Part shown: positions 7,712 to 39,379 of the stretch, piece by piece
Numbering within the stretch: position 1 is the stretch's first letter
How the letters are laid out: the number at the start of each line of letters is the position of its first letter
Source of the DNA: a virus
DNA length: 45,586 bases
Strand: one strand, 5' to 3'
IMG/VR virus record: IMGVR_UViG_3300020428_001737
Span: 1 to 45,586 of that record
The notes under the pieces: model-generated
Told to the model about the DNA's origin: nothing
The model's input: the letters and a program-made list of their open reading frames with translations, nothing else
The model's database searches: none
Made by a program: the position numbers and the translations under genes

Positions 7712-8020
7712 ATGTTAGTTACTGAAGTAATATCATTAGACGAAGCTACAAACGTTTGGAGTAGAGCAGGCGGTAAACAAACACGAAAGTTTAGATGCAC
7801 TAGTGGTCCCCGCAAAGGCAGAGTAATGTCAACACCAGCGTCTTGTAATAAGCCAATGGACATATCTAAAAGTGCAAAGCTAAAGCAAACAAAACTTAAG
7901 AAGCCTGGCCAAATTAAATTTAAGACCGGACGAACAAGACGTACTAATCCAGCAAGTGTTAGGTTAACGTCATTAAACAAACCAAAAACTCCTAAGACAC
8001 GAGGAAGGAGAATAAGATGA
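7712..8020 (+). CDS. basic protein, paralogue of the previous gene
   Basis: The 102-residue basic protein contains RKFRCTSGPRKGR and RTNPASVRLTSLNK, aligned with the same segments of the upstream protein, but lacks its Cys-rich N terminus. The gene starts 1 nt after the upstream stop and overlaps the next start. Conserved in T4-like cyanophages as a hypothetical; nucleic-acid binding is inferred from its charge. Confidence 0.75.
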   Translation: MLVTEVISLDEATNVWSRAGGKQTRKFRCTSGPRKGRVMSTPASCNKPMDISKSAKLKQTKLKKPGQIKFKTGRTRRTNPASVRLTSLNKPKTPKTRGRRIR

Positions 8021-8235
8021 AAATAAATGAAATTATGAGCCCAAAGATCAGTAAGGTTATGGGTAACAATGTTGAGATAGATCAAGGGGACGGTACTAAA
8101 CTAACAGTGGACATAAAAAAGAAGCCGTTAGTAAAGGATCCAAAGACAGGCAAAGTTAAGATGCCTACTAAAACAGTACCAGGGCAAAAGCCCGAAGGTG
8201 GCATTAAAGCCGGTGACGAAGTAGAAATGAGCTAA
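8017..8235 (+). CDS. conserved small phage protein
   Basis: The 72-residue protein is rich in Lys, Pro and Gly with the segment VEIDQGDGTKLTVDIKK, resembling a small hypothetical conserved in T4-like cyanophages. It overlaps the previous gene by 4 nt and is 1 nt from the next. Function unknown. Confidence 0.65.
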   Translation: MKINEIMSPKISKVMGNNVEIDQGDGTKLTVDIKKKPLVKDPKTGKVKMPTKTVPGQKPEGGIKAGDEVEMS

Positions 8236-8236
8236 C

Positions 8237-8440
8237 ATGAAAGTAAGTGAGCTATTAGAAAAATTTATAGTTTTCACCTCAAATGAGGAACAAGCTCTCT
8301 ACGAAAAATTACCCGCACACGCAACCCCATATAATAGTTACAGTGAACGAGAACAAGTCGTATTAGAAAATCTAATAAGGAAGAGTTTGGTAAGTAAAAT
8401 TAGTACTAAAAATATGGTAATGGTTGCGAAAAATGAATGA
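8237..8440 (+). CDS. small hypothetical protein
   Basis: This 67-residue soluble protein starts 1 nt after the previous stop. Its C-terminal half (EREQVVLENLIRKSLVSKI) could form a small helix-turn-helix-like unit, but I would not call it one. Its 3' end overlaps the next start (ATGAATGA). Confidence 0.6.
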   Translation: MKVSELLEKFIVFTSNEEQALYEKLPAHATPYNSYSEREQVVLENLIRKSLVSKISTKNMVMVAKNE

Positions 8441-8855
8441 ACTAGCAAATAAACTAGAACAAATAATTGATGAAAATTTAGATAAAATACACATTCCTTA
8501 TAAAAAAGGAAATAGTATTCGTATCAAAAACTATGTGATACGCAAGAAGAATGAGAATCAATACAAAATCTTTAATTGTAAAACAGGAAAACCTGTACAT
8601 GAAACATTTTGTCAACCAAGTGCTATTGCATGGGTAAACGCTACATTAGACGGCTCTGGTGTACATGATGTAGTTCGTTTAGATAAACTTATACAAAAAC
8701 ACTACATAGATTGTATTTTTTATCGAAATACACTAAGAACAGCTACTGATGCTACTAGAAAAATGAGTGCTGAAATAAGATTTGATATAAGTAGAAGTAA
8801 AGCTCTACAAGCAAGACATAGTCTGAACGACTATATCTTTTATAAAAAAAGCTAA
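8433..8855 (+). CDS. hypothetical basic protein
   Basis: The 140-residue basic protein contains a segment (NSIRIKNYVIRKKNENQYKI) that suggests a small beta-sheet domain. ATG 8433 overlapping the previous stop is the preferred start; TTG 8424 is the alternative. It ends just before a late box. No family is recognised. Confidence 0.65.
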   Translation: MNELANKLEQIIDENLDKIHIPYKKGNSIRIKNYVIRKKNENQYKIFNCKTGKPVHETFCQPSAIAWVNATLDGSGVHDVVRLDKLIQKHYIDCIFYRNTLRTATDATRKMSAEIRFDISRSKALQARHSLNDYIFYKKS

Positions 8856-10444: not shown

Positions 10445-10828
10445 ATGAACGATTACAAGCAAAAACAAGCTGAAATTACTGACCTTAATTGGGACGGCAA
10501 CATTGAAGATAATCCTGACTTAGAAGTCATAACAAAAGTTAAAGAAATACTTAAACAATCTGTACAACCGCAAGTTGCTATGCACGGCGGCCATATAGAA
10601 TTTATTGAATATAAAAATGGTATACTAAAACTTATGTTACAAGGTGCATGTTCAGGTTGTGCTGGTAGTACTATTACACTTAAAATGGGAGTAGAAAACT
10701 TGATAAAACATTATGTACCCGAGGTCAAAGAAATTATTGCTATTGATGATCCTAACAGCACTGTAGATCCTTTCTATAATCAATCTACAGACTTTGGCGT
10801 TTGGGGACAAGATGACCCTAATACTTAA
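10445..10828 (+). CDS. NfuA/NifU C-terminal-type Fe-S scaffold protein
   Basis: The 127-residue protein contains a NifU C-terminal domain at about residues 28-100. Cys69 and Cys72 form the CSGC motif that holds an Fe-S cluster, in the context MLQGACSGCAGSTITLK, and HGGHIEF precedes it as in NfuA. It would deliver clusters to Fe-S enzymes in the cytoplasm. It has its own consensus promoter and overlaps the nuclease gene that follows. PD-(D/E)XK nucleases of the Cas4/AddB type often carry an Fe-S cluster, so a functional link is possible but unproven. Confidence 0.88.
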   Translation: MNDYKQKQAEITDLNWDGNIEDNPDLEVITKVKEILKQSVQPQVAMHGGHIEFIEYKNGILKLMLQGACSGCAGSTITLKMGVENLIKHYVPEVKEIIAIDDPNSTVDPFYNQSTDFGVWGQDDPNT

Positions 10829-25475: not shown

Positions 25476-26660
25476 ATGCGTATTGAAGAAGATATGAAAC
25501 TTGACTACAAGGATGTTCTTATTCGTCCAAAGCGTTCAACACTAGGCAGTCGTAAAGAAGTTAATTTAGAACGTGGTTATAAATTTAGAAACTACAAAAC
25601 AGAAACACCATTTCTTCCAGTCGATGAAGACTATCATTATCGTGGCGTTCCTATTATGGCAAGTAACATGGATGGTGTCGGCACATTTAAAATGGCTGAT
25701 AATTTAGCACTACAAGGTATAATGACTTGTCTAGTTAAAACTTATAGTGTTAACGAACTTGTAGGTTACTTTGATCAAGATGATAAGTCACATGATCCTG
25801 CAAGGACAGAATATGTTGCTATGAGCATTGGCATCACTGATAAAGACCATCAAAAATTTAGAGATGTATACGAACAAGTTGGCAATCAACTAAAGTTTGT
25901 TTGTATTGATGTAGCGAATGGTTACTCAGAAAGATTTGCTAACTTTGTAAAAGAATTTAGAACACATTATCCAGATATAGTCATCATAGCGGGTAATGTG
26001 GTAACAGGAGAGATGACAGAGGAGTTATTATTAAGTGGAGCAGATATTATTAAAGTGGGCATCGGTCCTGGGAGCGTTTGCACAACTCGTATTCAAACTG
26101 GCGTTGGTTATCCTCAGCTTAGTGCTGTTATTGAGTGTGCTGATGCTGCTCACGGCCTTGGTGGACATATCATTGCTGATGGAGGATGTACTTGCCCAGG
26201 TGATGTGGCTAAGGCATTCGCTGGAGGCGCAGATTTTGTAATGCTTGGCGGTATGCTTGCCGGACACAATGAAGGCGGCGGTGAAATAATTACCAAATAT
26301 TATAAGACTGGTGAGTGGGTTCGTAATGAACAATCTCTTGATGGTCAAACTCAATCAATAACTTGGGAAGATGGCATTGAAAGAAAGAAGTTTGTACAAT
26401 TTTACGGTATGAGTAGTAAAAGTGCAAATGACAAACACTTTAATGGACTTAAAGATTACCGTTCGTCAGAAGGGCGTGAAGTGCTGGTTCCTTATCGTGG
26501 ATCTGTAAAAGACACTGTACAAGACCTCTTAGGCGGTCTTAGAAGCACTTGTACGTATGCAGGTGCAATAGGACTAAAACAACTTAGTAAGTGTACTACA
26601 TTCGTAAGATGTACACAAACTCATAATCAAATTTATGAATCAACCACCATAGGTAAGTAA
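25476..26660 (+). CDS. guaC: GMP reductase
   Basis: The enzyme converts GMP to IMP and ammonia with NADPH, linking guanine to adenine nucleotide pools. The start [21 protein letters not shown] is nearly that of E. coli GuaC (split: [20 protein letters not shown]). [10 protein letters not shown] holds the catalytic Cys202, followed by [20 protein letters not shown] and [12 protein letters not shown]. At 394 residues it is longer than E. coli GuaC (about 347), with extra residues near 42-55 and near 283-310, the latter in the flap before FYGMSS. Unusual in a phage; the close likeness to bacterial GuaC suggests acquisition from a bacterium. Confidence 0.95.
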
Positions 26661-26666
26661 GTTTAT

Positions 26667-27707
26667 ATGGAATATTTGAATTTATTAATTAGCGGTCAAG
26701 TTTATCTTTTCCTAGTAATATTTGTAATGATGATTGCAGGTATGGTAAAAGAACACGGATTATTCAAAGACATCTTTTGTTTCTTTGAGCAAAACTTAAA
26801 AAGTAAAAAAGCAGTAGTAGCACTTGTGAGTGCTATCACAGGATTATTGCCTATCAAAGGCCGAGTCACTGTTAGTGCAGGTATGTTAGAATCACTTGCT
26901 CCTGACAAAGGCTGTTGCGGCAGAGAAAAATTTGGTCCTATTGATTATGTATCTACGCATCATTACTATTTTTGGTCACCACTAGAAAAAACAGTGATTC
27001 TACCAATGGCGGCATTTGGGTTAACGTATGCACAATTCATGGGCATTATTTGGCCTTTGCTTGTTGTATCAATTGCATTCATACTCGCATATTTAATTTG
27101 GGGAGTAAAAGAATCAGATGTACAGTTGAATAACTGTGAAACACCTATCAAAGTAAGTCGTATCACACGTTATGTTTTGCCCTATGCTTTTGGTGTAGGT
27201 GCAATAATTGCTGGAGTAGACTTTCTTTGGGCATTTGGTGCTCTTACAGTTTACTACATGATCTGTACAACTACGTTTGATGTTAAAAAGCTACTTGGTT
27301 ATGTTGATTGGAAATTAGTAGCCTGGGTAGCAGTTATTATCACACTAGCAAATATCGTGCGAGAAAACACAGATACTATTAAAACAGGATTAGAAACAGT
27401 AGGATTAGACATCAACACTTGGGCAGGATTTTTAGGTATTAGTGCGTTAAGTTTTGGTGGTGCGTTTGCACTAGGAAGTAGTTCCCGCTTTGGTGCTATT
27501 ACTGTTTTGTTAGCAAGTATATACGGTATTGAATACTTGCCATGGTTTTTTGCTGTAGACTTTGTAGGGTATTTAATTAGCCCTATGCATAAGTGTGTAG
27601 CAATAGGTATGTTATATTTTGGTACCAAATTAAGGTACTATGTAACAATATTAGGTATGTGGGGCGGATTAGTAATTGCCGCGGGTGCAGCAACCTTAAT
27701 TTTATAG
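26667..27707 (+). CDS. DUF401-like polytopic membrane permease
   Basis: The 346-residue protein has about nine to ten membrane helices. The signature LLPIKGRVTVSAGMLESLAP and a second-half helix LSFGGAFALGSSSRFGAITV resemble the DUF401 membrane family, which belongs to the ion-transporter-like folds. Substrate unknown. It follows guaC by 6 nt, so a link to nucleotide or ammonium metabolism is possible. A complete permease of this type is unusual in a phage. Confidence 0.7.
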   Translation: MEYLNLLISGQVYLFLVIFVMMIAGMVKEHGLFKDIFCFFEQNLKSKKAVVALVSAITGLLPIKGRVTVSAGMLESLAPDKGCCGREKFGPIDYVSTHHYYFWSPLEKTVILPMAAFGLTYAQFMGIIWPLLVVSIAFILAYLIWGVKESDVQLNNCETPIKVSRITRYVLPYAFGVGAIIAGVDFLWAFGALTVYYMICTTTFDVKKLLGYVDWKLVAWVAVIITLANIVRENTDTIKTGLETVGLDINTWAGFLGISALSFGGAFALGSSSRFGAITVLLASIYGIEYLPWFFAVDFVGYLISPMHKCVAIGMLYFGTKLRYYVTILGMWGGLVIAAGAATLIL

Positions 27708-28480: not shown

Positions 28481-28948
28481 ATGACAAGAATAACACACCT
28501 AGACTTACCCTCAATACAACGACACTTTGTAGGCTTTGACAGCATGTTCAATGAAATGGACAGGATGTTTGAAAACTCAGCAAACAAAGGATCAGGATAT
28601 CCACCATACAACATTGCACAAATTAGCGAAGACGAGTTTATGATCTCAGTTGCAGTTGCTGGTTTTAGTATGGATAATTTAGAAATTACTAAAGATAAAA
28701 ATATCCTTAAAATTGAAGGGACTGCTCCTAAAGGAGACGACACAGTTAATTACCTACACAGAGGTATTGGCGGTCGTAACTTCCGTAGAGAGTTTACTCT
28801 TGCTGAACACGTAGAAGTTCATAATGCTGAACTTGCAAATGGTATGCTTAATATTCATTTGAAACGTGAAGTTCCAGAAGAGCTACAGCCTAAAAAGATT
28901 GAAATCAATTCAGGCAGTACAATTGAAGGAACTGTATCTGAAAAGTAA
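28481..28948 (+). CDS. hsp20: small heat shock protein (IbpA-like Hsp20)
   Basis: The 155-residue chaperone holds unfolding proteins. The N-terminal part (RHFVGFDSMFNEMDRMF) matches IbpA-type proteins; the alpha-crystallin domain spans about residues 40-130 with ISVAVAGFSMDNLEI, GRNFRREFTLAEHVEV and ANGMLNIHLKREVPE, and KKIEI is a C-terminal I-x-I-like anchor. sHSPs are common in T4-like marine phages. It is followed by a strong terminator. Confidence 0.93.
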   Translation: MTRITHLDLPSIQRHFVGFDSMFNEMDRMFENSANKGSGYPPYNIAQISEDEFMISVAVAGFSMDNLEITKDKNILKIEGTAPKGDDTVNYLHRGIGGRNFRREFTLAEHVEVHNAELANGMLNIHLKREVPEELQPKKIEINSGSTIEGTVSEK

Positions 28949-28953
28949 ACAGT

Positions 28954-28985
28954 CTGGGGGAGCAATTTGCTCCCCCATTTATTAG
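28954..28985 (+). terminator. intrinsic terminator after hsp20
   Basis: GGGGGAGCAA and TTGCTCCCCC form a 10-bp GC-rich stem followed by ATTTATT. It separates hsp20 from clpS. Confidence 0.8.
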
Positions 28986-28993
28986 GAGAAAAA

Positions 28994-29299
28994 ATGAGTG
29001 ATTTAGCAGACGTTCAAATTGACGAAAAAATTAAAGTTGATAATTTATATCCTGAAAGATATAAAGTAGTATTCTTAAATGATAACGTTACTCCAATAGA
29101 CTTTGTAACAGAACTATTAACTTCTATATTCAAACATACCCAAGAAACAGCAAAAGCAATTACATATACCATTCATAACGAAGGCTCAGCCGTGGTTGGG
29201 ATATATACACATGAAATAGCTGAACAAAAAGGTATAGAAGCAACAAATACAAGTAGAGCAAATGGCTTTCCGTTAAAAGTTGCAGTAGAGAAGGAATAA
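28994..29299 (+). CDS. clpS: ClpS adaptor protein
   Basis: The 101-residue protein matches ClpS: YKVVFLNDNVTPIDFVTELL, HNEGSAVVGIYTHEIAEQK, and a final strand FPLKVAVEKE. ClpS docks on ClpA and delivers proteins with destabilising N-terminal residues to ClpAP. The start is ATG 28994 with TTAGGAG upstream. The phage also carries ClpP at 43.7 kb, so it may redirect host proteolysis. It abuts the heme oxygenase gene. Confidence 0.93.
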   Translation: MSDLADVQIDEKIKVDNLYPERYKVVFLNDNVTPIDFVTELLTSIFKHTQETAKAITYTIHNEGSAVVGIYTHEIAEQKGIEATNTSRANGFPLKVAVEKE

Positions 29300-29866
29300 A
29301 TGAGTTTAAAAGATCTAACATGGGAACATCACAAAGAAGCTGAAAGACAACAATTTGTAAAAGTACTAATGAGCGGAAACATAAATCCTGAATTGTACGC
29401 AACATACTTATGGAATCAGCATAAGCGTTACGACTTACTAGAAGCAATAGCTACACCATTAGGACTAATTGATCAAGATCTATTTGCAATTAGACGTAAA
29501 GATAGAATTGAAAAAGACTTCTTAGAACTTTGGAAAAAAGATCAACCACCTAAAATAGTAAAAGCCACTGAAGAATATATTATGCATATGAAAACAATTA
29601 TGGCAGATCCTGAAAAGGTAATGGCACATCTTTATGTTTTACATATGGGAGATTTAAGTGGTGGACAAATGATCAAACGTAAAGTTCCAGGCGAAGGTCG
29701 CATGTATCAGTTTGATAAAGATAAAAACGAATTGAAAGAATCTATTAGAGCAAAGATTCATGACGGAATGGCAGAAGAGGCAAAATTTGTTTTTTCTAAT
29801 AGTACAGATTTATTTAAAAATATTATGGAGTTAGACATTGAGCATTATATGGAACCGGTTAGTTGA
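29300..29866 (+). CDS. hemO: heme oxygenase
   Basis: The 188-residue protein opens heme to biliverdin, iron and CO. LTWEHHKEAERQQFV places the likely proximal His at residue 11, and YVLHMGDLSGGQMIKR matches the conserved distal-helix motif of heme oxygenases. It directly precedes a bilin reductase, with 29 nt of overlap, so biliverdin is probably passed on. Electrons would come from host ferredoxin, as no ferredoxin gene is in the window. Confidence 0.93.
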   Translation: MSLKDLTWEHHKEAERQQFVKVLMSGNINPELYATYLWNQHKRYDLLEAIATPLGLIDQDLFAIRRKDRIEKDFLELWKKDQPPKIVKATEEYIMHMKTIMADPEKVMAHLYVLHMGDLSGGQMIKRKVPGEGRMYQFDKDKNELKESIRAKIHDGMAEEAKFVFSNSTDLFKNIMELDIEHYMEPVS

Positions 29867-30542
29867 GTGTCAAGATGAAATCATTGATATCTTCAATGAA
29901 AATGCACTTGAAATTAATGAACCTGGATTAGATTATTTTAATCGACCTGATGGAGGTTGGATTAATCGTGTGTGGGCGAATGATCATATTAGAAGAGCCC
30001 ATATTGATGTAGTTGATACTAGAGATAGTAAGAAACTATGGATGATGCATGTATGTGTTTTTCCAGTACTAAACAATACTGGACCTATATATGGCTTTGA
30101 TGTTATAGCAGGTCCACGTAAAATGACAGGAGCATTTCATGACTTTAGTGCTAGTTCTGATCCTGACCATCCAATGATAGAAGGATACAAAGATGCTGTA
30201 AAAGACTTTGTACCTACAAAACAAAGAGAGCTACCTGAATGGGCTCAAAACATATTCACAGACAGCATGATTGCCGCTGGCAATGTAACTACAGAAGACG
30301 AAGCAGTTGCAATTATAGATCTTGCTATTAATAATTTACGTGCATACTTTTTAGAAATACCAGAATATACCGGCGAAGGAGATACCGCTCTAGTTGCGGC
30401 TTCACAAGATTATTACTGTCATAATCAGCAACAAAATCCACATACACCAAGAGTAATGAAAAGTCTTGGACTAGATGAAGCTGATGTTGACAAGTTCTGC
30501 ACAGACATGTTGTTTCCTAAATTAGATAAATATTCTATATAA
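29838..30542 (+). CDS. pcyX: ferredoxin-dependent bilin reductase, PcyA/PcyX type
   Basis: The 234-residue protein reduces biliverdin. It follows PcyA throughout: AHIDVV, MMHVCVFPV, IYGFDVIAGPRKM, QRELPEWAQNIFTDS, NVTTEDE and YCHNQQQNPHTPRV. His71 and Asp88 correspond to catalytic His88 and Asp105 of PcyA with the same spacing, while Asp57 stands where PcyA has Glu76, needed for D-ring vinyl reduction. This fits PcyX, a phage-derived enzyme reported from uncultured ocean phages to make phycoerythrobilin. TTG 29838 (GGAG 7 nt upstream, inside hemO) is the only good start. Confidence 0.88.
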   Translation: MSIIWNRLVECQDEIIDIFNENALEINEPGLDYFNRPDGGWINRVWANDHIRRAHIDVVDTRDSKKLWMMHVCVFPVLNNTGPIYGFDVIAGPRKMTGAFHDFSASSDPDHPMIEGYKDAVKDFVPTKQRELPEWAQNIFTDSMIAAGNVTTEDEAVAIIDLAINNLRAYFLEIPEYTGEGDTALVAASQDYYCHNQQQNPHTPRVMKSLGLDEADVDKFCTDMLFPKLDKYSI

Positions 30543-31663: not shown

Positions 31664-31713
31664 CAACTGAAAGCAAAATGGACGTAAATTTACGTTTATA
31701 TTCGGAGAGAAAT

Positions 31714-32205
31714 ATGAAGATGAAAGTCCTTGCATTCGTATCCATAGCAATGTTATATTCAGGTGCGGCTGCAACAGAAATTGTATGGGGTTTTAAGAAC
31801 CCTGCGTTCCATTATGGTAACGGGTACTCTACTCATGTGTTGAGTGTTGAGCAGTTACAGCATAATAGGAAAAAAGAATTAGAAGATTTTCGTAGAGCTG
31901 AAGCTCAAAGAGTTCAAAGAGAACTAGAAAATACAACTTTAAATAAATTTATTAAAAACTTAGAATCTAGGATTTATGCACAAATTTCCAAACAGATGGT
32001 AGATAGCATGTTTACAACTTGTCCAGCCGCAGATCAAGCTGCAGGTATATGTTCACAACCAACAACTGGAGTTGCAACTATAGAAGGTTCTACTATAACA
32101 TGGCTTAGAGATGCAGTAACAGGAAGTATCACTCTTACTATTATAGATGAGAACGGCTCAGTAACTGAAATTACTATCCCAGGAGCGGGAGAATTTGGAT
32201 TCTAA
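31714..32205 (+). CDS. csgF: curli assembly protein CsgF
   Basis: The 163-residue protein has a signal peptide (cleavage near AAA, residue about 21), then TEIVWGFKNPAFHYGNGYST, which matches the CsgF N terminus (FRNPNFGG type) that inserts into the CsgG pore, then a helix and a C-terminal sheet domain. The start is ATG 31714 with GGAGA upstream; the longer frame from 31678 is rejected. CsgF couples secretion through CsgG to nucleation at the surface. csgG follows 3 nt later. Confidence 0.88.
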   Translation: MKMKVLAFVSIAMLYSGAAATEIVWGFKNPAFHYGNGYSTHVLSVEQLQHNRKKELEDFRRAEAQRVQRELENTTLNKFIKNLESRIYAQISKQMVDSMFTTCPAADQAAGICSQPTTGVATIEGSTITWLRDAVTGSITLTIIDENGSVTEITIPGAGEFGF

Positions 32206-32208
32206 ATC

Positions 32209-33153
32209 ATGAAGCGTATTCTAGCATCATTAGTTTTTAGTTTACTAGCAACAGGGTGTGCTATTAGTCCCAATATGGTTGATTATGCTAAAGAAAGTAG
32301 TTGGGATCCTACTGTTCAAACAGCACCACTAAAAGATGCACTAATTTCAGTGCCAGAATTAGATGGCCCAGTTATTACAGTAGCAGTATATAGTTTTTCA
32401 GATAAAACAGGACAACGTAAACCTGCAAGTAATATTGCTAACCTAAGCTCAGCAGTTTCGCAAGGAAGTGAAGTATGGGTTATAAAAGCATTACAAGATG
32501 TAGGAAACGGAACATGGTTCCAAGTAGTGGAACGTGTAGGATTAGATAATTTGGTGAAGGAGCGACAGTTAATACGTTCCACAAGGGAGCAGTATGAAAA
32601 AACTTTACCAAAAGGCCCATTGCCTCTTAAACCTATGCTATTTGCAGGGTTATTGTTAGAGGGTGGCATTGTTGGTTATGATAGCAATGTTGCCACAGGA
32701 GGTGCTGGTGCAAGATATTTGGGTATAGCGGCTCAAACCGAATATCGAATTGATACTGTCACGGTGGTGATGAGATTAGTTTCTGTAAGTAGTGGAAAAG
32801 TACTAATGAGTATTGCTACTGAGAAGGTTATCGCATCGTCCCGTTCTGGAGCAGATGTATTCAAATTTTTAGATATGGGTACAAAGGCAGTTGAAGCAGA
32901 AACGGGTTATTCCGTTAACGAACCGGTCAATTACGCAGTAAGGGCAGCCATTGAGGCAGGCGTGATTGAGATTATAAACCAAGGAGAGAGAGATGGTCTT
33001 TGGAAATTTAAAAACAAACAATATATTGATAAAGAAGTGATCAAAAAGGATGCAGAAATTTACTGTGATTCTGATGATGAATGTGATCAACTATTGCTTG
33101 ATTTAGAAGATGACGAAGAGCTCTCCGATAAGAAGAGGGATAAAAATGAATAG
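32209..33153 (+). CDS. csgG: curli secretion channel lipoprotein CsgG
   Basis: The 314-residue protein forms a nonameric outer-membrane pore. Signal peptide with lipobox ATGC (Cys17); VAVYSFSDKTGQRKPASN, the family hallmark GYDSNVATGGAGARYLGI and GLWKFKN at the end all match E. coli CsgG. It has an additional acidic C-terminal tail of about 40 residues (DSDDECDQLLLDLEDDEE) not present in E. coli. It lies in an operon with csgF and the curlin genes. Related CsgG genes are known in a few marine phages such as pelagiphage HTVC008M (from memory). Confidence 0.95.
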   Translation: MKRILASLVFSLLATGCAISPNMVDYAKESSWDPTVQTAPLKDALISVPELDGPVITVAVYSFSDKTGQRKPASNIANLSSAVSQGSEVWVIKALQDVGNGTWFQVVERVGLDNLVKERQLIRSTREQYEKTLPKGPLPLKPMLFAGLLLEGGIVGYDSNVATGGAGARYLGIAAQTEYRIDTVTVVMRLVSVSSGKVLMSIATEKVIASSRSGADVFKFLDMGTKAVEAETGYSVNEPVNYAVRAAIEAGVIEIINQGERDGLWKFKNKQYIDKEVIKKDAEIYCDSDDECDQLLLDLEDDEELSDKKRDKNE

Positions 33154-33856
33154 AATGTACAAAGGACTTTTAACCTTAGTATTATTCAGCTTTGTTACTA
33201 TAGCGTCAGCAAATGATATCTACATCACACAGGTAGGTGATACTTTAGATTTAGATATTACTCAAGACGGTGTAGGCAACGTGATAGGTACAAGTGTAAC
33301 AGCAGTTGATTTAGATGGAGCCAGTATGACTTTTAATATTAGTCAAGTAGGTAATAATAACATTGTCTCTGCATTAATTAAAGGTACAAGTTATACAGGT
33401 ACTTGGTCTGCTACAGGAAACAGCAACGACATAGATTTCAAATGTTCTAGTACTTCAGCAGGAAACTGTGAAAGTGTAACAGCAACAATTGATATCGACG
33501 GCGATAGCACAAACTTAGATTTGTATATTGGTGAAAATGCTGATGCTGACAATACTAATGTTAATCTAGATATTGATGGTAATGGTAACATACTTGCTAT
33601 GAACTTAGATGGTACAGACTTAGCATTAACTTACACAATTGATAATAGTGTAGGAAGTGGTGCAAGTTTAAATACAGCTAACACTATTACAGTTGATGTT
33701 GATGATTCAGGTTTAACAGGTCAAAATCAAACAATGGCTTTAGTTGGTGGTGGAAACACTATTAACATTAACCAAAGTGGTACAGCACAAGACCAGACTA
33801 TTGATTTGAACATGCAAACCAGTGGTAGTACTATAGATATTACGCAAAGCGATTAA
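33146..33856 (+). CDS. curlin-repeat secreted protein, copy 1
   Basis: The 236-residue protein has a signal peptide (cleavage after ASA, about residue 23) followed by curlin-type repeats of about 20-22 residues: DIYITQVGDTLDLDITQDGVGN, MTFNISQVGNNN, INQSGTAQDQTIDLN, IDITQSD (the first split: DIYITQVGD, DLDITQDGVGN). Gln and Asn spacing fits CsgA/CsgB. It overlaps csgG by 8 nt and starts at ATG 33146 with AGAGGG. It is probably a CsgG substrate forming amyloid-like fibres or a nucleator. It has two Cys, in a CSSTSAGNC loop. Confidence 0.8.
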   Translation: MNRMYKGLLTLVLFSFVTIASANDIYITQVGDTLDLDITQDGVGNVIGTSVTAVDLDGASMTFNISQVGNNNIVSALIKGTSYTGTWSATGNSNDIDFKCSSTSAGNCESVTATIDIDGDSTNLDLYIGENADADNTNVNLDIDGNGNILAMNLDGTDLALTYTIDNSVGSGASLNTANTITVDVDDSGLTGQNQTMALVGGGNTININQSGTAQDQTIDLNMQTSGSTIDITQSD

Positions 33857-33858
33857 TT

Positions 33859-34980
33859 GTGAGGATATTGTTTTGTTTATTGATCGCGGCATTCTGGACT
33901 AATTTAGCGTTTGCAAATATAGGTCAGATAGCGGATCAAAAAGGAAATGGAGTTATAGAACGTGGCCAAGATGTAATTGGCTCTGGTGTTGGCACTCAAG
34001 TAGAGAGCTTAGACTCAGCAGTTACAACTAATGGAACCATGCGAATAGACTTCATAGATGAAACCCGTGTGGATATTACTGAACATAGTAAACTTATTAT
34101 TGATGAGTTTGTCTATGATCCAGCTAATGACATTGGTTCCTTATCTATAAAAGCGTCATTAGGAACAGTAAGGTACGCATCTGGACAAATTGCTAAAAAA
34201 TATAAGCAAAATGTCCAGATAAGAACACCTAGTGCTACTATTGGTGTACGTGGTACAGACTTTGTGATGGTAGTAGATGAAATTGGTGGAAGTTTAATTA
34301 CCTTGTTACCTAGTTGCGATACAAGTGGTCGTTGCTATGTTGGCGAAATTACAGTTGATACTGATGTAGGACAAGTTATACTTAATCAAGCATTCCAGGC
34401 AACATCAACAACTCATGGAGCACAACCTCCAAGTAAGCCACGAATTATAGATGTAGACGAAAATATGATTGATACACTTTTAATCCTACGTAAGAAATTA
34501 CCATGGGTTGAAGATGAAGAAGAATGGAAAAAGGCACAAAGACAAGCAGCAGATATATTAGGCATTGACTTTTTAGAATTTGATGGATTAGATATAGATG
34601 TGTGGCAAACTGATGAAGAAATTTGGCACACTGAACTTGATGAAACTGATTTTATGTTAGGTGATCTGTTAATAGATATTTTAGAACAGTTAAATATACA
34701 GTTAGCCGCACTATTTAAAGACGAGTTTGAAAAACAAAAAACTGACTTTGCAGGAGTAAGGTTAGGATTTGATTCAGCAACAGGTGTGCGAATAACAGAT
34801 GAAGATCCTCATTATGTATTTGAAAGATACGATAATGTAGGCACAAATAACGTAAAATTAAAGTTACATAAATCATCAGGCGGATATACTATTAATTTAC
34901 AACAAGGAGATTTTGAATTAATTGACTATAGAATTGGAAATGGTCCTAATAATATAGACATTTATCAAAGTAATAACTAA
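33859..34980 (+). CDS. FecR-domain protein with curlin-like tail
   Basis: The 373-residue protein starts at GTG 33859 and has a signal peptide (after AFA). Residues about 22-190 are a FecR domain: GSGVGTQVESLDSAVTTNGT, IDFIDETRVDITEHSKLII, SLGTVRYASGQIA, TPSATIGVRGTDFVM. The C-terminal end (YTINLQQGDFELIDYRIGNG, PNNIDIYQSNN) returns to a curlin-like pattern. FecR-domain proteins sense or anchor in the periplasm and often occur near CHASE2-cyclase genes in bacteria. It lies between two curlin genes with 2-nt and 1-nt junctions. Confidence 0.82.
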   Translation: MRILFCLLIAAFWTNLAFANIGQIADQKGNGVIERGQDVIGSGVGTQVESLDSAVTTNGTMRIDFIDETRVDITEHSKLIIDEFVYDPANDIGSLSIKASLGTVRYASGQIAKKYKQNVQIRTPSATIGVRGTDFVMVVDEIGGSLITLLPSCDTSGRCYVGEITVDTDVGQVILNQAFQATSTTHGAQPPSKPRIIDVDENMIDTLLILRKKLPWVEDEEEWKKAQRQAADILGIDFLEFDGLDIDVWQTDEEIWHTELDETDFMLGDLLIDILEQLNIQLAALFKDEFEKQKTDFAGVRLGFDSATGVRITDEDPHYVFERYDNVGTNNVKLKLHKSSGGYTINLQQGDFELIDYRIGNGPNNIDIYQSNN

Positions 34981-36014
34981 TGAAAATAACAGGAACACAT
35001 TTAGGAATCTTAGTAATGGTATTATACTTTAGTGCCCAAGCCTGTTACGCGAACGAAATTTACGTAAATCAAGTTGGCGATAATGTTGATATAGATATTG
35101 TGCAAGACGGTCAAAACAATAGTATCCGCAGTCTTAACACAACTAGTGGCGATGCAAGTATAAACGGAAGCAACAAAACATTTACAGTAACACAACAAGG
35201 TAACAATAATAGAGCAGGTTTCTGGACAAATGGTACTAACCAAGTGATGTCACTTATACAAGATGGTAATTCAAATGTTAGTGCAATGGACAACCACGGT
35301 AACAATAACGACATGTCAGTTGCTATTGATGGAGATAGTAATGTTACTCATACTGAAATAGGTAATGGTAGCGATATCAATAATCAAATTAGCGTAACTA
35401 TTAATGACGGCGATAGCAACACACTTTACACTGAAGTACAAAACGGCAGTACAAATAGTATAGACGTACAAGTACATAAACAAAGCAACAACGTCAATAG
35501 AGTTACAGTAAATGGTAGCAACAACAATGTAAAAGCATGGCAAGGCAAGCACGAAGATGGCTCAATAGATAATGATGAAACTGGCAACAATGATGTGTAT
35601 TGGATTGTTAGCGGTAGTAACAATAATCTTGCAAGTTATCAAACAGACGATAACGGCAATGGCGGACAGCATATTGCAAATTATGTTACAGGTGATAACA
35701 ACGATGTAAAACATACACAGCGTGGTGCAGGTGATCATAATGGTTTTGTAGAAATTACTGGTGACAATAATAATGTTGAAGTATTACAAAGAGGTAACAG
35801 TAACACGCAATTTGCAGATATAGTTTTAGATGACGGACACACAGTTGATGTATATCAAAGATATGGATCACACACTGCAAATATTGATTTAACAAACTCA
35901 GGCGGTGGCTACACATTAGATTTAGATCAAACTGCTAACACTAACCAAACATATAACATCACAGGTACATGTGCAACCGCTTACGGTTGCGGACTAATCA
36001 TCACCCAAAATTAA
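34980..36014 (+). CDS. curlin-repeat secreted protein, copy 2 (long)
   Basis: The 344-residue protein has a signal peptide (after CYA, about residue 24) and about ten 20-24-residue curlin-like repeats rich in Asn, Gly, Asp and Gln, for example EIYVNQVGDNVDIDIVQDG, TFTVTQQGNNNRAG, MSLIQDGNSNV, VEITGDNNNVEVLQRGNSN. CsgA of E. coli has five repeats, so this is about twice as long. The first repeat matches that of copy 1 (EIYVNQVGD and DIYITQVGD). It is probably secreted by the phage CsgG. The last gene of the cassette. Confidence 0.82.
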   Translation: MKITGTHLGILVMVLYFSAQACYANEIYVNQVGDNVDIDIVQDGQNNSIRSLNTTSGDASINGSNKTFTVTQQGNNNRAGFWTNGTNQVMSLIQDGNSNVSAMDNHGNNNDMSVAIDGDSNVTHTEIGNGSDINNQISVTINDGDSNTLYTEVQNGSTNSIDVQVHKQSNNVNRVTVNGSNNNVKAWQGKHEDGSIDNDETGNNDVYWIVSGSNNNLASYQTDDNGNGGQHIANYVTGDNNDVKHTQRGAGDHNGFVEITGDNNNVEVLQRGNSNTQFADIVLDDGHTVDVYQRYGSHTANIDLTNSGGGYTLDLDQTANTNQTYNITGTCATAYGCGLIITQN

Positions 36015-36022
36015 TTTCAAAA

Positions 36023-36030
36023 ACTAAATA
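36023..36030 (+). promoter_or_regulatory. late-type promoter box
   Basis: ACTAAATA lies 40 nt before TTG 36071. The leader can form a small CAGG...CCTG hairpin. Confidence 0.45.
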
Positions 36031-36070
36031 CGTGTAAGCAGGTATGGGCTCCTGTAGAAAGTAGGGCGTA

Positions 36071-36553
36071 TTGATCGATCCATTCACAGCCGTAGCCGCG
36101 GCAACAACAGCATTCAACACAGTTAAAAAGTTTGTACATGCTGGTCAAGAATTTGAAAACTGTATGGGACAAATGGGCAAGTGGTATGGCGCTGTTAGTG
36201 ACTTCCGCAAAGGCCAGCAGATGCAGAAGAAACCACCTATATTTAAAAAACTACTAGCAGCAGGGTCAGTAGAAGAAGAAGCACTTAATCTATTAATACA
36301 TGAAAAGAAAATCATGGAGATGGAGAAAGAGTTACAGACAATGTTAAACTATCGCTTTGGTTTTGGTACATGGGATGAACTAAAAGAAATGCAACGTAAA
36401 ATTAGAGCTCAACGTGAGCGTGATGTTTATGCAGCCGCAGAGGCTAAACAAGCAATAGTAAACGGAGTTGCTATTGTAATATTACTAGTAATTGGTGCTA
36501 CTATGTTAATTGGTATGGTGTATTTTATAGCAAAGGCTAGAGGAATGATCTAA
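36071..36553 (+). CDS. conserved phage protein with C-terminal membrane helix
   Basis: The 160-residue protein (MIDPFTAVAAATTAFNTVKK) resembles a conserved T4-like cyanophage protein: helical, charged middle part and a C-terminal membrane helix (about 135-155). It starts at TTG 36071; GTAGGG upstream is a weak ribosome binding site. Function unknown. Confidence 0.7.
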   Translation: MIDPFTAVAAATTAFNTVKKFVHAGQEFENCMGQMGKWYGAVSDFRKGQQMQKKPPIFKKLLAAGSVEEEALNLLIHEKKIMEMEKELQTMLNYRFGFGTWDELKEMQRKIRAQRERDVYAAAEAKQAIVNGVAIVILLVIGATMLIGMVYFIAKARGMI

Positions 36554-36862
36554 TTGTGGTATGTTTATAGTAACCTAGAATATTACAACCAAAATAACAA
36601 AGGAATTCTATACAAAGACGGTAAGATATTGTTTATGGGAAATAGTTGGAGTGGTATAATGCAGTTTTTAAGAGAAACTAATAACGCACCAGAAGTTAGA
36701 GAAATGTTCAAAGCCCAACTTGAACAACGTGAAAAAGTAAAATACAGACTTGAACAAAAAGAAAAAGTTACACAAGATCCACAAAAAGTAAAAGAAAATT
36801 GGTCAAATGAAAAACCTAAGAAATCAAGATCAAAAAACCAATGGGATAGACTTACAAAATGA
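36554..36862 (+). CDS. small charged hypothetical protein
   Basis: The 102-residue protein starts at TTG 36554 immediately after the previous stop. The first half is a small globular part (NKGILYKDGKILFMGNSWSG), the second is highly charged (KVKYRLEQKEKVTQDPQKVK). Its stop overlaps the next start (ATGA). Not recognised. Confidence 0.65.
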   Translation: MWYVYSNLEYYNQNNKGILYKDGKILFMGNSWSGIMQFLRETNNAPEVREMFKAQLEQREKVKYRLEQKEKVTQDPQKVKENWSNEKPKKSRSKNQWDRLTK

Positions 36863-37077
36863 TACATGCGTTTATGTTAGTAGTATTAATAGGTGGTGAC
36901 TTACAACCTTCACCTATGTATTTTAGAAGTATAGATGTATGTCAATATTATGCTAAACGTATACCTAGACAATACGGAAACTATTCACACAGCTACTTAG
37001 TACCTAAAGAACACAGAGTAACTGCATACTGTAAACCAGTTAAAGTGCAAGATGGGCCAAAAATATATGATCATTGA
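36859..37077 (+). CDS. small exported or membrane protein
   Basis: The 72-residue protein begins with a short hydrophobic stretch (MIHAFMLVVLIGG) that may be a signal peptide and contains two Cys. It overlaps both neighbours. Not recognised. Confidence 0.55.
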   Translation: MIHAFMLVVLIGGDLQPSPMYFRSIDVCQYYAKRIPRQYGNYSHSYLVPKEHRVTAYCKPVKVQDGPKIYDH

Positions 37078-37312
37078 ATTAGCAATGGCAGGAATGATGT
37101 CCTGCTCTATAGTACACAAAGAAATAGTAAAAGAAGATATTATGTGCTTCTATACATGCAAAGATAGTAGTAGAGAATTTGCTAGTACGCTAAAACAATA
37201 TCAATGTCCTAAAACTTTATATGTTGAACGACCAGCGATGCCATTTAAAGATCGTGACTTTCGAGGCAATAAATGGACAAAAGAAGCTATAGGAAAAATT
37301 ACAAACAAATAG
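37052..37312 (+). CDS. small Cys-containing hypothetical protein, possibly exported
   Basis: The 86-residue frame starts at ATG 37052; ATG 37067 (MIIELAMAGMMSCSIV) is an alternative that makes a short signal-like N terminus. It has several Cys (CFYTCKDSS, QYQCPK). It ends 3 nt before the late box of the cyclase gene. Confidence 0.55.
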   Translation: MGQKYMIIELAMAGMMSCSIVHKEIVKEDIMCFYTCKDSSREFASTLKQYQCPKTLYVERPAMPFKDRDFRGNKWTKEAIGKITNK

Positions 37313-37315
37313 TAC

Positions 37316-37323
37316 GATAAATA
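37316..37323 (+). promoter_or_regulatory. late-type promoter box, leaderless start of the cyclase
   Basis: GATAAATA in the context ACGATAAATACAGTATG lies 4 nt before ATG 37328 with no Shine-Dalgarno sequence. The core is shared with the box before csgF and, with one change, with the box at 22122. Confidence 0.65.
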
Positions 37324-37327
37324 CAGT

Positions 37328-39379
37328 ATGACGAAGTATATCACACATTGGGCTGTTGCCTTTGTAACAGCTTTTATAATGATAAGTTTGCATTACAACG
37401 ATGGCTCTGTTGTGCAGACTGCTCGGCTGAAGCAATTTGACTTACTTCAAAACACTGATCAGTCAACCATATCCCAAGATATAGGTATCGTAACCATTGA
37501 CGAACCTGCCATTGAAAAGTACGGACAATGGCCTTGGAAGCGTGATGTTATTGCAGATATAATCTGGAATCTTCGCGAGGCAGGTGCTGGCATCATAGTG
37601 GTGCCTATACTCTTTTCAGAGCCTGATAGATTAGGCGGGGATATAGAGTTAGCCGAAGCACTTGCAGGTAACGGAGTAGTTATTGCTCAAACAGGAACTA
37701 CATCTGTTAATAAAAATCCTGTTCCTAGAGGCGTAGCCAAAATAGGAGATCCTTTGCCATATATGTTTGAATGGCCAGGGATGTTAGGACCAATCCCATT
37801 GCTAGGAGAAAATGCTGACGGTGTAGGTGTTTTAAACACTGCACCTGAAATAGACGGTGTTGTTCGACGTGTACCTCTCCTTATGCGTATTGGGGAGAAT
37901 ACGTATCCTACTTTAGCAATTGAAGTAATTAGAACAGCAACAGGTAACCCTAGTTATCAAGTAAAAGCAGGTCCCGGAGGCATTGAAGCAGTACGTGTTC
38001 CGGGTTACCCAATAATAAAAACAGATCCAAATGCACAGTTATGGTTAAGGTGGAATAAAGACTTTGATACTATAAGTGCGGCTGATAAAGATCAGTTCTG
38101 GATGTTTGAGGGTAAAACTGTAATTTTAGGAATTACAGCAGAAGGCATAGGCGGATTAATCGCTAGTCCAACAGGACCACAATATAATTATATACCAGCG
38201 GCAGTAACACTACAGACAGTTATGGATGGAGATCAAATTGAACGTCCTTACTGGGCATTCTTGGTGGAGTTGATCACAACAGCAGTCTTGGGCATAGCCC
38301 TTGTGCTTCTTGGACGATTTGCACCTTACTGGTTAGCTGGAGGAAGTATAGTTGTATTTGTGGGAGGACTCGCCTATGCTGTTTATTATGCTTGGACAAC
38401 ACATTTATATTTGTTAGACGCAACAATGCCAATAGTAACAGTTTTACTTGTTGGATTACATGCGGTGTTTAATAGATTTGTATTAGAATTTTTTGAAAAA
38501 CAAAAAATTAAGAAACAGTTTGCAGGATATGCATCACCAACAGTAGTACGTTTACTTCAAGAAAATCCTGCACTAATTAAAGAAGGTATGAAAAAAGAAG
38601 TTTCAATCTGCTTCTCAGATCTAAGAGGCTTTACACCACTAGGTGAATCATTTGGCGACGATGTAAAAGGCCTTACTAAAATAATGAATGGCTATATGGA
38701 TGCTATTACGCAACCTATACTTGACAGCGACGGAATGGTTATTAAATATATAGGTGATGCTAGTATGCACATACACAATGCACCTATAGATGATTCACAT
38801 CATCCTCGTACAGCCGTTGAAACAGGTTTAAATATGTTAAAAGCAGTGGAGAAGTTCAATGAAAAAATTACAAGTGAAGGCAGACCACCCGTTGGTATGG
38901 GTGCCGGTATTAATACTGGTCTTGGCTATCTTGGTGAAATGGGGTCAACGGCCAGACACAGTTATGATGTTCTCGGGGATGCTGTAAGCACAGCCGCTCG
39001 TATCGAAAGCAAGTGTAAAGAGTATGGTTGTGTTTTATTAATAGGCGATGCAACATATCAAGCAACTAAAGACGATTTCTTTTATTTAAAAATAGATGAC
39101 TTAGCAGTTAAAGGAAAAACTGTAGGTATTGGTATTTGGACAGTGTTAGATGGAATTAAACCTGCGTGGCGTACAGCAAAACGTAAGCACGAAGAAATGC
39201 ACAAGTTCTACAAAGAACAAAAGTTTGATGATGCGATTGCTAGTTGTGAATTATTGCACAATCATTTTGATGAAAAGATGGCGGCATACTACGATATGTG
39301 GATAGAGCGTTGTGAGTATATGAAAACGCAGAAGTTATCCAAAGACTGGAATGGCGTTTTTATTGCTACTACAAAATAA
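37328..39379 (+). CDS. CHASE2-domain transmembrane class III nucleotide cyclase
   Basis: The 683-residue protein has an N-terminal membrane helix, a periplasmic CHASE2 sensor domain (about 40-310: IGIVTIDEPAIEKYGQWPWKRD, VRRVPLLMRIG), three further helices (about 315-395), and a cytoplasmic class III cyclase domain (about 420-620). Metal-binding Asp431 (FSDLRGF) and Asp477 (KYIGDA) and Arg558 are kept. At the usual transition-state Asn (GDAVNxAAR) there is Ser554 (GDAVSTAARIES), so activity may be altered. Asp547 suggests ATP preference. It probably makes cAMP on a periplasmic cue, possibly from the FecR protein upstream. Confidence 0.9.
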   Translation: MTKYITHWAVAFVTAFIMISLHYNDGSVVQTARLKQFDLLQNTDQSTISQDIGIVTIDEPAIEKYGQWPWKRDVIADIIWNLREAGAGIIVVPILFSEPDRLGGDIELAEALAGNGVVIAQTGTTSVNKNPVPRGVAKIGDPLPYMFEWPGMLGPIPLLGENADGVGVLNTAPEIDGVVRRVPLLMRIGENTYPTLAIEVIRTATGNPSYQVKAGPGGIEAVRVPGYPIIKTDPNAQLWLRWNKDFDTISAADKDQFWMFEGKTVILGITAEGIGGLIASPTGPQYNYIPAAVTLQTVMDGDQIERPYWAFLVELITTAVLGIALVLLGRFAPYWLAGGSIVVFVGGLAYAVYYAWTTHLYLLDATMPIVTVLLVGLHAVFNRFVLEFFEKQKIKKQFAGYASPTVVRLLQENPALIKEGMKKEVSICFSDLRGFTPLGESFGDDVKGLTKIMNGYMDAITQPILDSDGMVIKYIGDASMHIHNAPIDDSHHPRTAVETGLNMLKAVEKFNEKITSEGRPPVGMGAGINTGLGYLGEMGSTARHSYDVLGDAVSTAARIESKCKEYGCVLLIGDATYQATKDDFFYLKIDDLAVKGKTVGIGIWTVLDGIKPAWRTAKRKHEEMHKFYKEQKFDDAIASCELLHNHFDEKMAAYYDMWIERCEYMKTQKLSKDWNGVFIATTK

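Follow-up and report, generated by a model that had tools for sequence, protein, structure and literature searches.

A putative heme-to-bilin gene cassette with ClpS and Hsp20 in marine jumbo phages, and a second clade of PcyX-type reductases

Heme oxygenases (HO) and bilin reductases of the PcyX family make up a route that leads from heme through biliverdin to phycoerythrobilin (PEB). Two papers account for phage PEB genes through the photosynthesis of cyanobacteria and name the supply of iron secondarily (Sci Rep 2026; Nat Commun 2024, PMC11480375). The HO-PcyX pair is already published for phages of heterotrophs (SAR11), through Nat Commun 2024 (PMC11480375) and through the pelagiphage Mosig, whose genome announcement gives Pelagibacter ubique HTCC1062 as the host of isolation (MRA 2021). 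Additionally, phage PcyX is described as grouping with alphaproteobacterial PcyA in a further study (PNAS 2023).

Several described systems are close to the locus presented here, and each departs from it in its own way. The PEB synthase PcyX_EBK42635 (PDB 5owg), from a marine phage metagenome, shares with our enzyme its predicted fold (TM 0.94 on the target), the Asp/His/Asp set and a phage origin; however, it falls within the Mosig-type clade, whereas the present enzyme is in a sister clade. In Mosig EXVC030M (MT647606) the HO gene likewise lies directly 5' of PcyX and overlaps it, in a phage of a non-photosynthetic host. Mosig differs in being a 141-kb pelagimyophage with a ferredoxin, its enzyme is 52% identical to ours, and the Mosig-type PcyX stands beside the neck gene gp13 (36/40 loci against 0/52 of the type described here, in samples drawn from the best 80 of 194 and of 224 loci, respectively) and has no ClpS/Hsp20 cassette. 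The published hemO-pcyX-valaS phage cassette (Nat Commun 2024, PMC11480375) also unites HO and PcyX, and an ALA synthase is present on both large relatives of our phage; but the published marine contigs are termed Mosig-like, and no ALA synthase is found on the 95.9-kb contig described here. The main text of that paper mentions neither ClpS nor Hsp20, nor does it use the word chaperone. Cyanophage PcyA and PebS are bilin reductases of the same superfamily. The former clusters on its own, has Glu at the Glu76 site and is accompanied in P-SSM7 by psbA, cpeT and ferredoxin, while PebS was compared with our enzyme by fold alone. A tblastn search over 50,697 phage records returned a related reductase in 19, the sole near one being that of Pelagibacter phage Mosig (52%), and the others those of cyanophages at 22-28%. 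Among the titles and abstracts of the open-access literature, we found no paper on a jumbo phage with bilin or HO genes, nor on ClpS with phage and heme oxygenase, in this setting; titles and abstracts on ClpS and tetrapyrrole proteolysis gave nothing decisive.

The heme oxygenase and bilin reductase genes

The window analysed here is the whole stretch of 45,586 nucleotides from the IMG/VR virus record IMGVR_UViG_3300020428_001737. The genes of the cassette and those upstream of it are the following.

25476-26660, + strand: GMP reductase, upstream of the cassette (Pfam PF00478; NCBIfam NF003470 above its cut-off)
26667-27707: DUF401 membrane protein, preceding the cassette (present in 6/52 relatives, from the best 80 of 224)
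28481-28948, + strand: Hsp20/IbpA-like small heat-shock protein, which opens the cassette (Pfam PF00011, 56.1 bits)
28955-28977, + strand: terminator-like hairpin of 10 pairs (7 G-C) between hsp20 and clpS (consensus scan)
28994-29299, + strand: ClpS-type N-degron adaptor (Pfam PF02617, 92.1 bits)
29300-29866, + strand: HO, 188 aa, ATG start (Pfam PF01126 Heme_oxygenase, 72.3 bits against a cut-off of 23)
29838-30542, + strand: PcyX-type ferredoxin-dependent bilin reductase, 234 aa, TTG start (Pfam PF05996 Fe_bilin_red, 49.6 bits against a cut-off of 31)

A preliminary description of this DNA, made from its letters, had named an overlapping hemO and PcyA-like reductase at 29300-30542, and this reading stands. 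Both ORFs are there on the + strand with an overlap of 29 bases, and both Pfam scores are far above chance. The closest solved chains to the HO are HO-2 and further heme oxygenases, at E 2e-11 or weaker, and the NCBIfam HO models gave no match to it. His11, which we take to be the proximal histidine, is kept in 47/48 relatives, and Asp118, presumably the aspartate of the distal helix in the GDLSGG motif, in 48/48. The family score, the proximal His and the distal-helix Asp by which the HO-1 superfamily is recognised were thus all found in 29300-29866.

The top solved relative of the reductase is the phage enzyme PcyX_EBK42635 (E 1.3e-84), followed by cyanobacterial PcyA (9e-14). When the reductase is aligned to solved PcyA, its Asp57, His71 and Asp88 fall on Glu76, His88 and Asp105, respectively, in agreement with the residues given earlier. 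These three residues are invariant in 26/26 rows of clade W and 15/15 rows of clade M, that is, in 41/41 phage PcyX rows of the tree, whereas the PcyA rows, cyanobacterial or from cyanophages, carry Glu at the Glu76 site in 6/6. The NCBIfam PcyA model NF002760 scores 73.8 bits with the reductase, under its cut-off of 206; together with Asp57, this places it outside the cyanobacterial type of PcyA. An AlphaFold model (pLDDT 92.7, from an alignment of 23 sequences) was used for a fold search, in which 5owg was the best match. The 46 matches to this predicted fold at E <= 0.001 consist of bilin reductases and red chlorophyll catabolite reductases, two of them belonging to a Chlamydomonas complex that contains PcyA.

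The tree comprises 52 sequences, with one in two of the 52 W representatives and one in three of those of clade M. The window reductase falls in clade W (support 83/90), which adjoins clade M (100/99), the home of pelagiphage Mosig and of the EBK42635 enzyme. As had been expected of a PcyX, it is set apart from PcyA: the six PcyA of this tree, all from cyanobacteria or cyanophages, separate at 100/100, with long branches flagged at the PcyA and Shewanella rows. Residues, clade and modelled fold together argue that the reductase at 29838-30542 belongs to the PcyX group. Clade W, the second PcyX clade and sister to that of the pelagiphage and EBK42635, is on the evidence of this tree new.

Gene neighbourhood in the two PcyX clades

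Loci were taken from the best 80 of 224 for clade W and the best 80 of 194 for clade M and reduced at 97% identity to 52 and 40, respectively, Mosig included in the latter; three short sequences were dropped. The ORF families standing beside PcyX in 85 loci are HO (79), Hsp20 (77), ClpS (74) and a GMP-reductase type (73). Among the W relatives so deduplicated from the best 80 of 224, the GMP reductase neighbour recurs in 47/52, ClpS is found 5' of PcyX in 48/50 with enough flank, Hsp20 within 2.5 kb 5' of PcyX in 46/50, and the full set of HO, ClpS and Hsp20 in the 3.5 kb that precede PcyX in 47/50 of the 97%-identity representatives with at least 2.5 kb of flank. Both large contigs keep the order of the cassette, with about 1 kb extra between HO and PcyX in the 335-kb contig. 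The representatives of clade M (from the best 80 of 194) have HO upstream in 21/21 and ClpS or Hsp20 in 0/21. The loci also differ in G+C, at 35-41% for W and 29-35% for M. From gene content, we conclude that the HO-PcyX pair is maintained in two phage groups with dissimilar backbones and neighbours, and that a conserved Hsp20-ClpS-HO-PcyX cassette in marine jumbo phages is a new setting for this known pair.

Within the window, the ORF listed for ClpS runs from 28967 to 29299 with an in-frame ATG at 28994, and its end abuts the start of HO. The hairpin at 28955-28977 may split hsp20 from clpS-HO-pcyX; the consensus scan gave four terminator-like hairpins in the region against a shuffle mean of 1.8. 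The T4 late-promoter motif was found five times against 7.9 expected, which is no enrichment. Median dN/dS is 0.124 for PcyX (180 pairs), 0.156 for Hsp20 (533), 0.256 for HO (122) and 0.279 for ClpS (135), so that PcyX is the cassette gene under the strongest purifying selection, the pairs being not independent of one another. Such contrasts among the cassette genes can stem from fold constraints.

Some relatives show other arrangements. Two W contigs, L040 and L053, carry PcyX without HO nearby; around 8001-8693 in these, PcyX lies 3' of DNA-polymerase-type and other replication genes. In L007 (3201-5115 and 6560-7357), GroES/GroEL genes stand 5' of the cassette, as in some relatives, and a 265-aa gene, nitrilase-like by eye, lies between HO and PcyX.

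Phage lineage and host

At 99.987% identity, the window matches a section of a partial IMG/VR contig of 95,923 bases, referred to here as its own contig. Core-gene profiles were built from four T4-like phages; on the own contig and on three further W contigs (107-118 kb), they picked up no terminase, capsid or portal. Two large relatives fill the picture, with ten of ten tested core genes found on the contig of 357,559 bases (L072) and six of six on that of 335,231 bases (L099); both are apparently near-complete, judged from size and core genes. The own contig's 157 ORFs of at least 100 aa have 89 in common with the former and 91 with the latter, against 29 matching Melnitz, 24 HTVC008M, 16 Mosig and 11 P-SSM7. 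An ordinary T4-like phage or pelagimyophage was considered, as 41/136 ORFs match HTVC008M, Melnitz or Mosig, yet the ORFs in common with either jumbo contig are about three times those in common with the best of these phages. The HTVC008M/Mosig group of pelagimyophages was likewise rejected, its backbone not being nearest and gp13 standing beside PcyX in none of the 52 W loci.

The nearest relatives of the core genes are jumbo phages of Pseudomonas, Agrobacterium, Sinorhizobium, Vibrio and Pectobacterium. The clamp loader of the own contig is closest to PA5oct-type Pseudomonas phages (53.6%); on the 357-kb contig, the terminase is closest to PA5oct-type Pseudomonas jumbo phages (55%) and the capsid is most like those of Sinorhizobium phage Phosso and Vibrio phage 2.275.O (69%). 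PA5oct, Atu_ph07, Phosso and Vibrio 2.275.O are the nearest isolates for clamp loader, terminase and capsid; all four are missing from the 19 phage records in which a PcyX-like reductase was matched. We therefore read the window as a piece of a jumbo myophage of the T4 supergroup. The curli, ClpS and Hsp20 genes named in the preliminary description are present by Pfam, but its label of a T4-like phage was too loose. Phage kinship, on which the host call is based, hints at a non-cyanobacterial and most likely proteobacterial host, and the earlier preference for a non-cyanobacterial one remains the better reading since the core genes are closest to jumbo phages of Pseudomonadota. Against it count the DNA of nrdA and the polymerase of another W contig (L053, 43%), both closest to cyanophages, while the NrdB protein is about equally close to cyanophages and pelagiphages. 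Membership in metagenome-assembled genomes was of no use for the host, as PcyX contigs were binned in five discordant places (Pirellulales, Halobacteroidaceae, Neomarinimicrobiota, a flavobacterium and a Shewanella).

Gene families were searched in 30 IMG/VR contigs hand-picked among the 80, mainly by length, and in 31 records when Mosig is added. The statement that photosystem genes are missing holds in this sample: psbA was found in 0/30 contigs, the own 95.9-kb contig included, nor was it found by tblastn in the second large relative, and phycobilisome genes and CpeT were each found in 0/31 records. The records come without stated completeness, so these absences carry weight mainly through the two large contigs. 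A tblastn search of six jumbo-type contigs returned no psbA, cpeT, CP12, talC, hli or phage ferredoxin. An estimate of 1e-7 for absence by chance was set aside, as it presumes genomes of 180 kb. Cyanophage identity was rejected because psbA and photosynthesis genes were not found in the contigs searched.

The own contig carries five tRNAs. On the 357-kb jumbo contig (G012), 24 tRNA genes lie within 10 kb (L238, 2490-12363), and a tmRNA in L240.

Possible roles of the pathway

By family membership, the HO would open the heme ring and so yield biliverdin IXalpha along with CO and Fe(II), and the PcyX-type reductase would take four electrons from a host ferredoxin to convert biliverdin to PEB. 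Since the sole assayed PcyX sits in clade M, the PEB product is here an extrapolation across about 52% identity. The reading that we prefer, with a probability of roughly 0.5, is that PEB is the selected product and is made in a non-photosynthetic host for a use other than photosynthesis. The reduced bilin might serve as a free pigment or antioxidant, or as a ligand or chromophore of a host protein, and iron would be a by-product. The bilin is favoured as the selected product because PcyX is the most constrained gene, sometimes occurs without a nearby HO, and is accompanied by an ALA synthase that feeds heme synthesis. This synthase, above its cut-off in 7/31 records and present on the two large relatives of 357,559 and 335,231 bases, would lift the heme supply while HO degrades heme, leaving the product of the pathway, not iron, as the net gain. 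The second phage group with HO-PcyX, on another backbone, has a cultured SAR11 member, which also speaks for the preferred reading.

Other observations count against it. Bilin acceptors of known type were absent, both GAF domains and phycobilisome genes being found in 0/31 records; the idea that the pigment feeds a bacteriophytochrome-like receptor is thus without support from the phage side. The ferredoxin that the preliminary description had thought worth looking for did not turn up: a 2Fe-2S ferredoxin (Fer2) is present in 1/31 records, that of Mosig, and in 0/30 IMG/VR contigs. No ALA synthase was found in the 95.9 kb of the own contig. Additionally, several Fe-S assembly genes occur in the same genomes, in line with a use of iron.

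Release of iron, already proposed in the preliminary description, remains a serious rival, tentative as it is and behind the bilin in our estimate. HO would here free the iron of host heme for Fe-S assembly by the phage and for iron enzymes (NrdB, 2OG oxygenases), and PcyX would only drain biliverdin and keep HO turning over. An iron role for such phages is mentioned in Nat Commun 2024 (PMC11480375), and the gene content is suggestive. Besides IscS (above its NCBIfam cut-off), IscU and an IscA-type protein, the own contig codes for DnaJ, a ClpA-type unfoldase and an Nfu-type domain. IscU is found in 8/31 records, the own contig among these; IscU and IscA together in G001, G005, G012 and the 335-kb contig; and Nfu in 4/6 contigs. 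DnaJ is also carried by G005, G012 and the 335-kb contig. The Nfu-type gene of the window is a possible user of the freed iron:

10445-10828, + strand: NifU/NfuA C-terminal-type Fe-S carrier (Pfam PF01106, 85.5 bits)

Against this, PcyX is more constrained than HO, is kept without a nearby HO in L040 and L053 and retains the product-type Asp in all 41 phage tree rows, and the ALA synthase of related genomes implies more heme, at a cost in iron.

An unlikely alternative takes the whole cassette as one unit for the recycling of hemoproteins, in which Hsp20, ClpS and the phage ClpA would deliver host hemoproteins to ClpP and HO-PcyX would remove the heme released. The presence of all three genes 5' of PcyX in 47/50 W representatives (from the best 80 of 224) is consistent with this, as are the ClpA-type unfoldase on G001, G005, G012 and the 335-kb contig and GroEL in 12/52 W relatives (from the best 80 of 224). 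But the Mosig-type clade keeps HO-PcyX with ClpS or Hsp20 in 0/21, which leaves the recycling unit a mere hypothesis. Hsp20 is also found elsewhere in marine T4-like phages, a hairpin stands between hsp20 and clpS, and gene neighbourhood by itself is no proof of joint action. In its widest form, marine jumbo phages of heterotrophs would run a tetrapyrrole module, with their own ALA synthase driving heme synthesis, ClpA, ClpS and Hsp20 stripping hemoproteins, HO and the second PcyX clade making PEB, and Isc proteins reusing the iron; we regard this complete scheme as doubtful. If it were true, a cyanobacterial antenna pigment would serve infected cells without photosynthesis.

It is improbable that the enzyme is a PcyA-like reductase making phycocyanobilin, for instance for a phytochrome. 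The PcyA/X of freshwater phage CB_2 does yield phycocyanobilin, and the window enzyme has only about 52% identity to that of Mosig; CB_2 is, however, without the PcyX Asp that is invariant in all 41 phage rows here, and GAF domains were found in 0/31 records. The least probable reading is that the pair aids the photosynthesis of a cyanobacterial host, the role proposed for cyanophage PebS and PcyA. In its favour, PEB is among the pigments of phycobilisomes, engineered Synechococcus 7942 has more PEB when given PcyX (Sci Rep 2026), and the nrdA DNA is closest to cyanophages. Against it, psbA, CpeT, phycobilisome genes, CP12, talC and hli were not found in the contigs searched, the tree sets the reductase apart from cyanophage PcyA, and the core genes are closest to jumbo phages of Pseudomonadota.

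On the preferred reading, with PEB as the selected product, the same PEB reaction would occur in two phage groups with differing backbones and settings, with photosynthesis genes not found where they were searched for. The benefit of a bilin in an infected heterotroph thereby becomes a testable question, with cultures of Mosig and HTCC1062 and with the enzymes themselves.

The 'putative ferrochelatase' of Mosig was considered as a partner in heme synthesis and rejected, as PF00762 matches 0/31 records and the protein is without a Pfam match. It lies at 4357-5127 in L081, with relatives in P-SSM7, HTVC008M and G012. The Mosig record (L108-L110) has a computed G+C of 33.0%, against the 30.01% printed in its announcement (MRA 2021). 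In Shewanella surugensis DSM 17177 (L101, 9453-10270; L197, 1405-2175), an HO gene adjoins a PcyX-like gene that is broken, and the strain also has, apart from these, an intact bilin reductase with Asn at the Glu76 site; PF05996 matched 1/398 Pseudomonadota genomes and 1/117 Shewanella genomes, both being this strain.

Downstream of the cassette, the window holds curli genes that are outside the bilin pathway:

31678-33153, + strand: CsgF and CsgG curli secretion genes (Pfam), common to HTVC008M and Melnitz

They begin a single run at 31678-39379, which also holds a CHASE2-adenylate cyclase, a FecR-domain protein and two proteins whose curlin-repeat scores are weak and under the cut-off. The annotations of HTVC008M and Melnitz contain homologous runs, and the cyclase is 67% identical to that of Melnitz.
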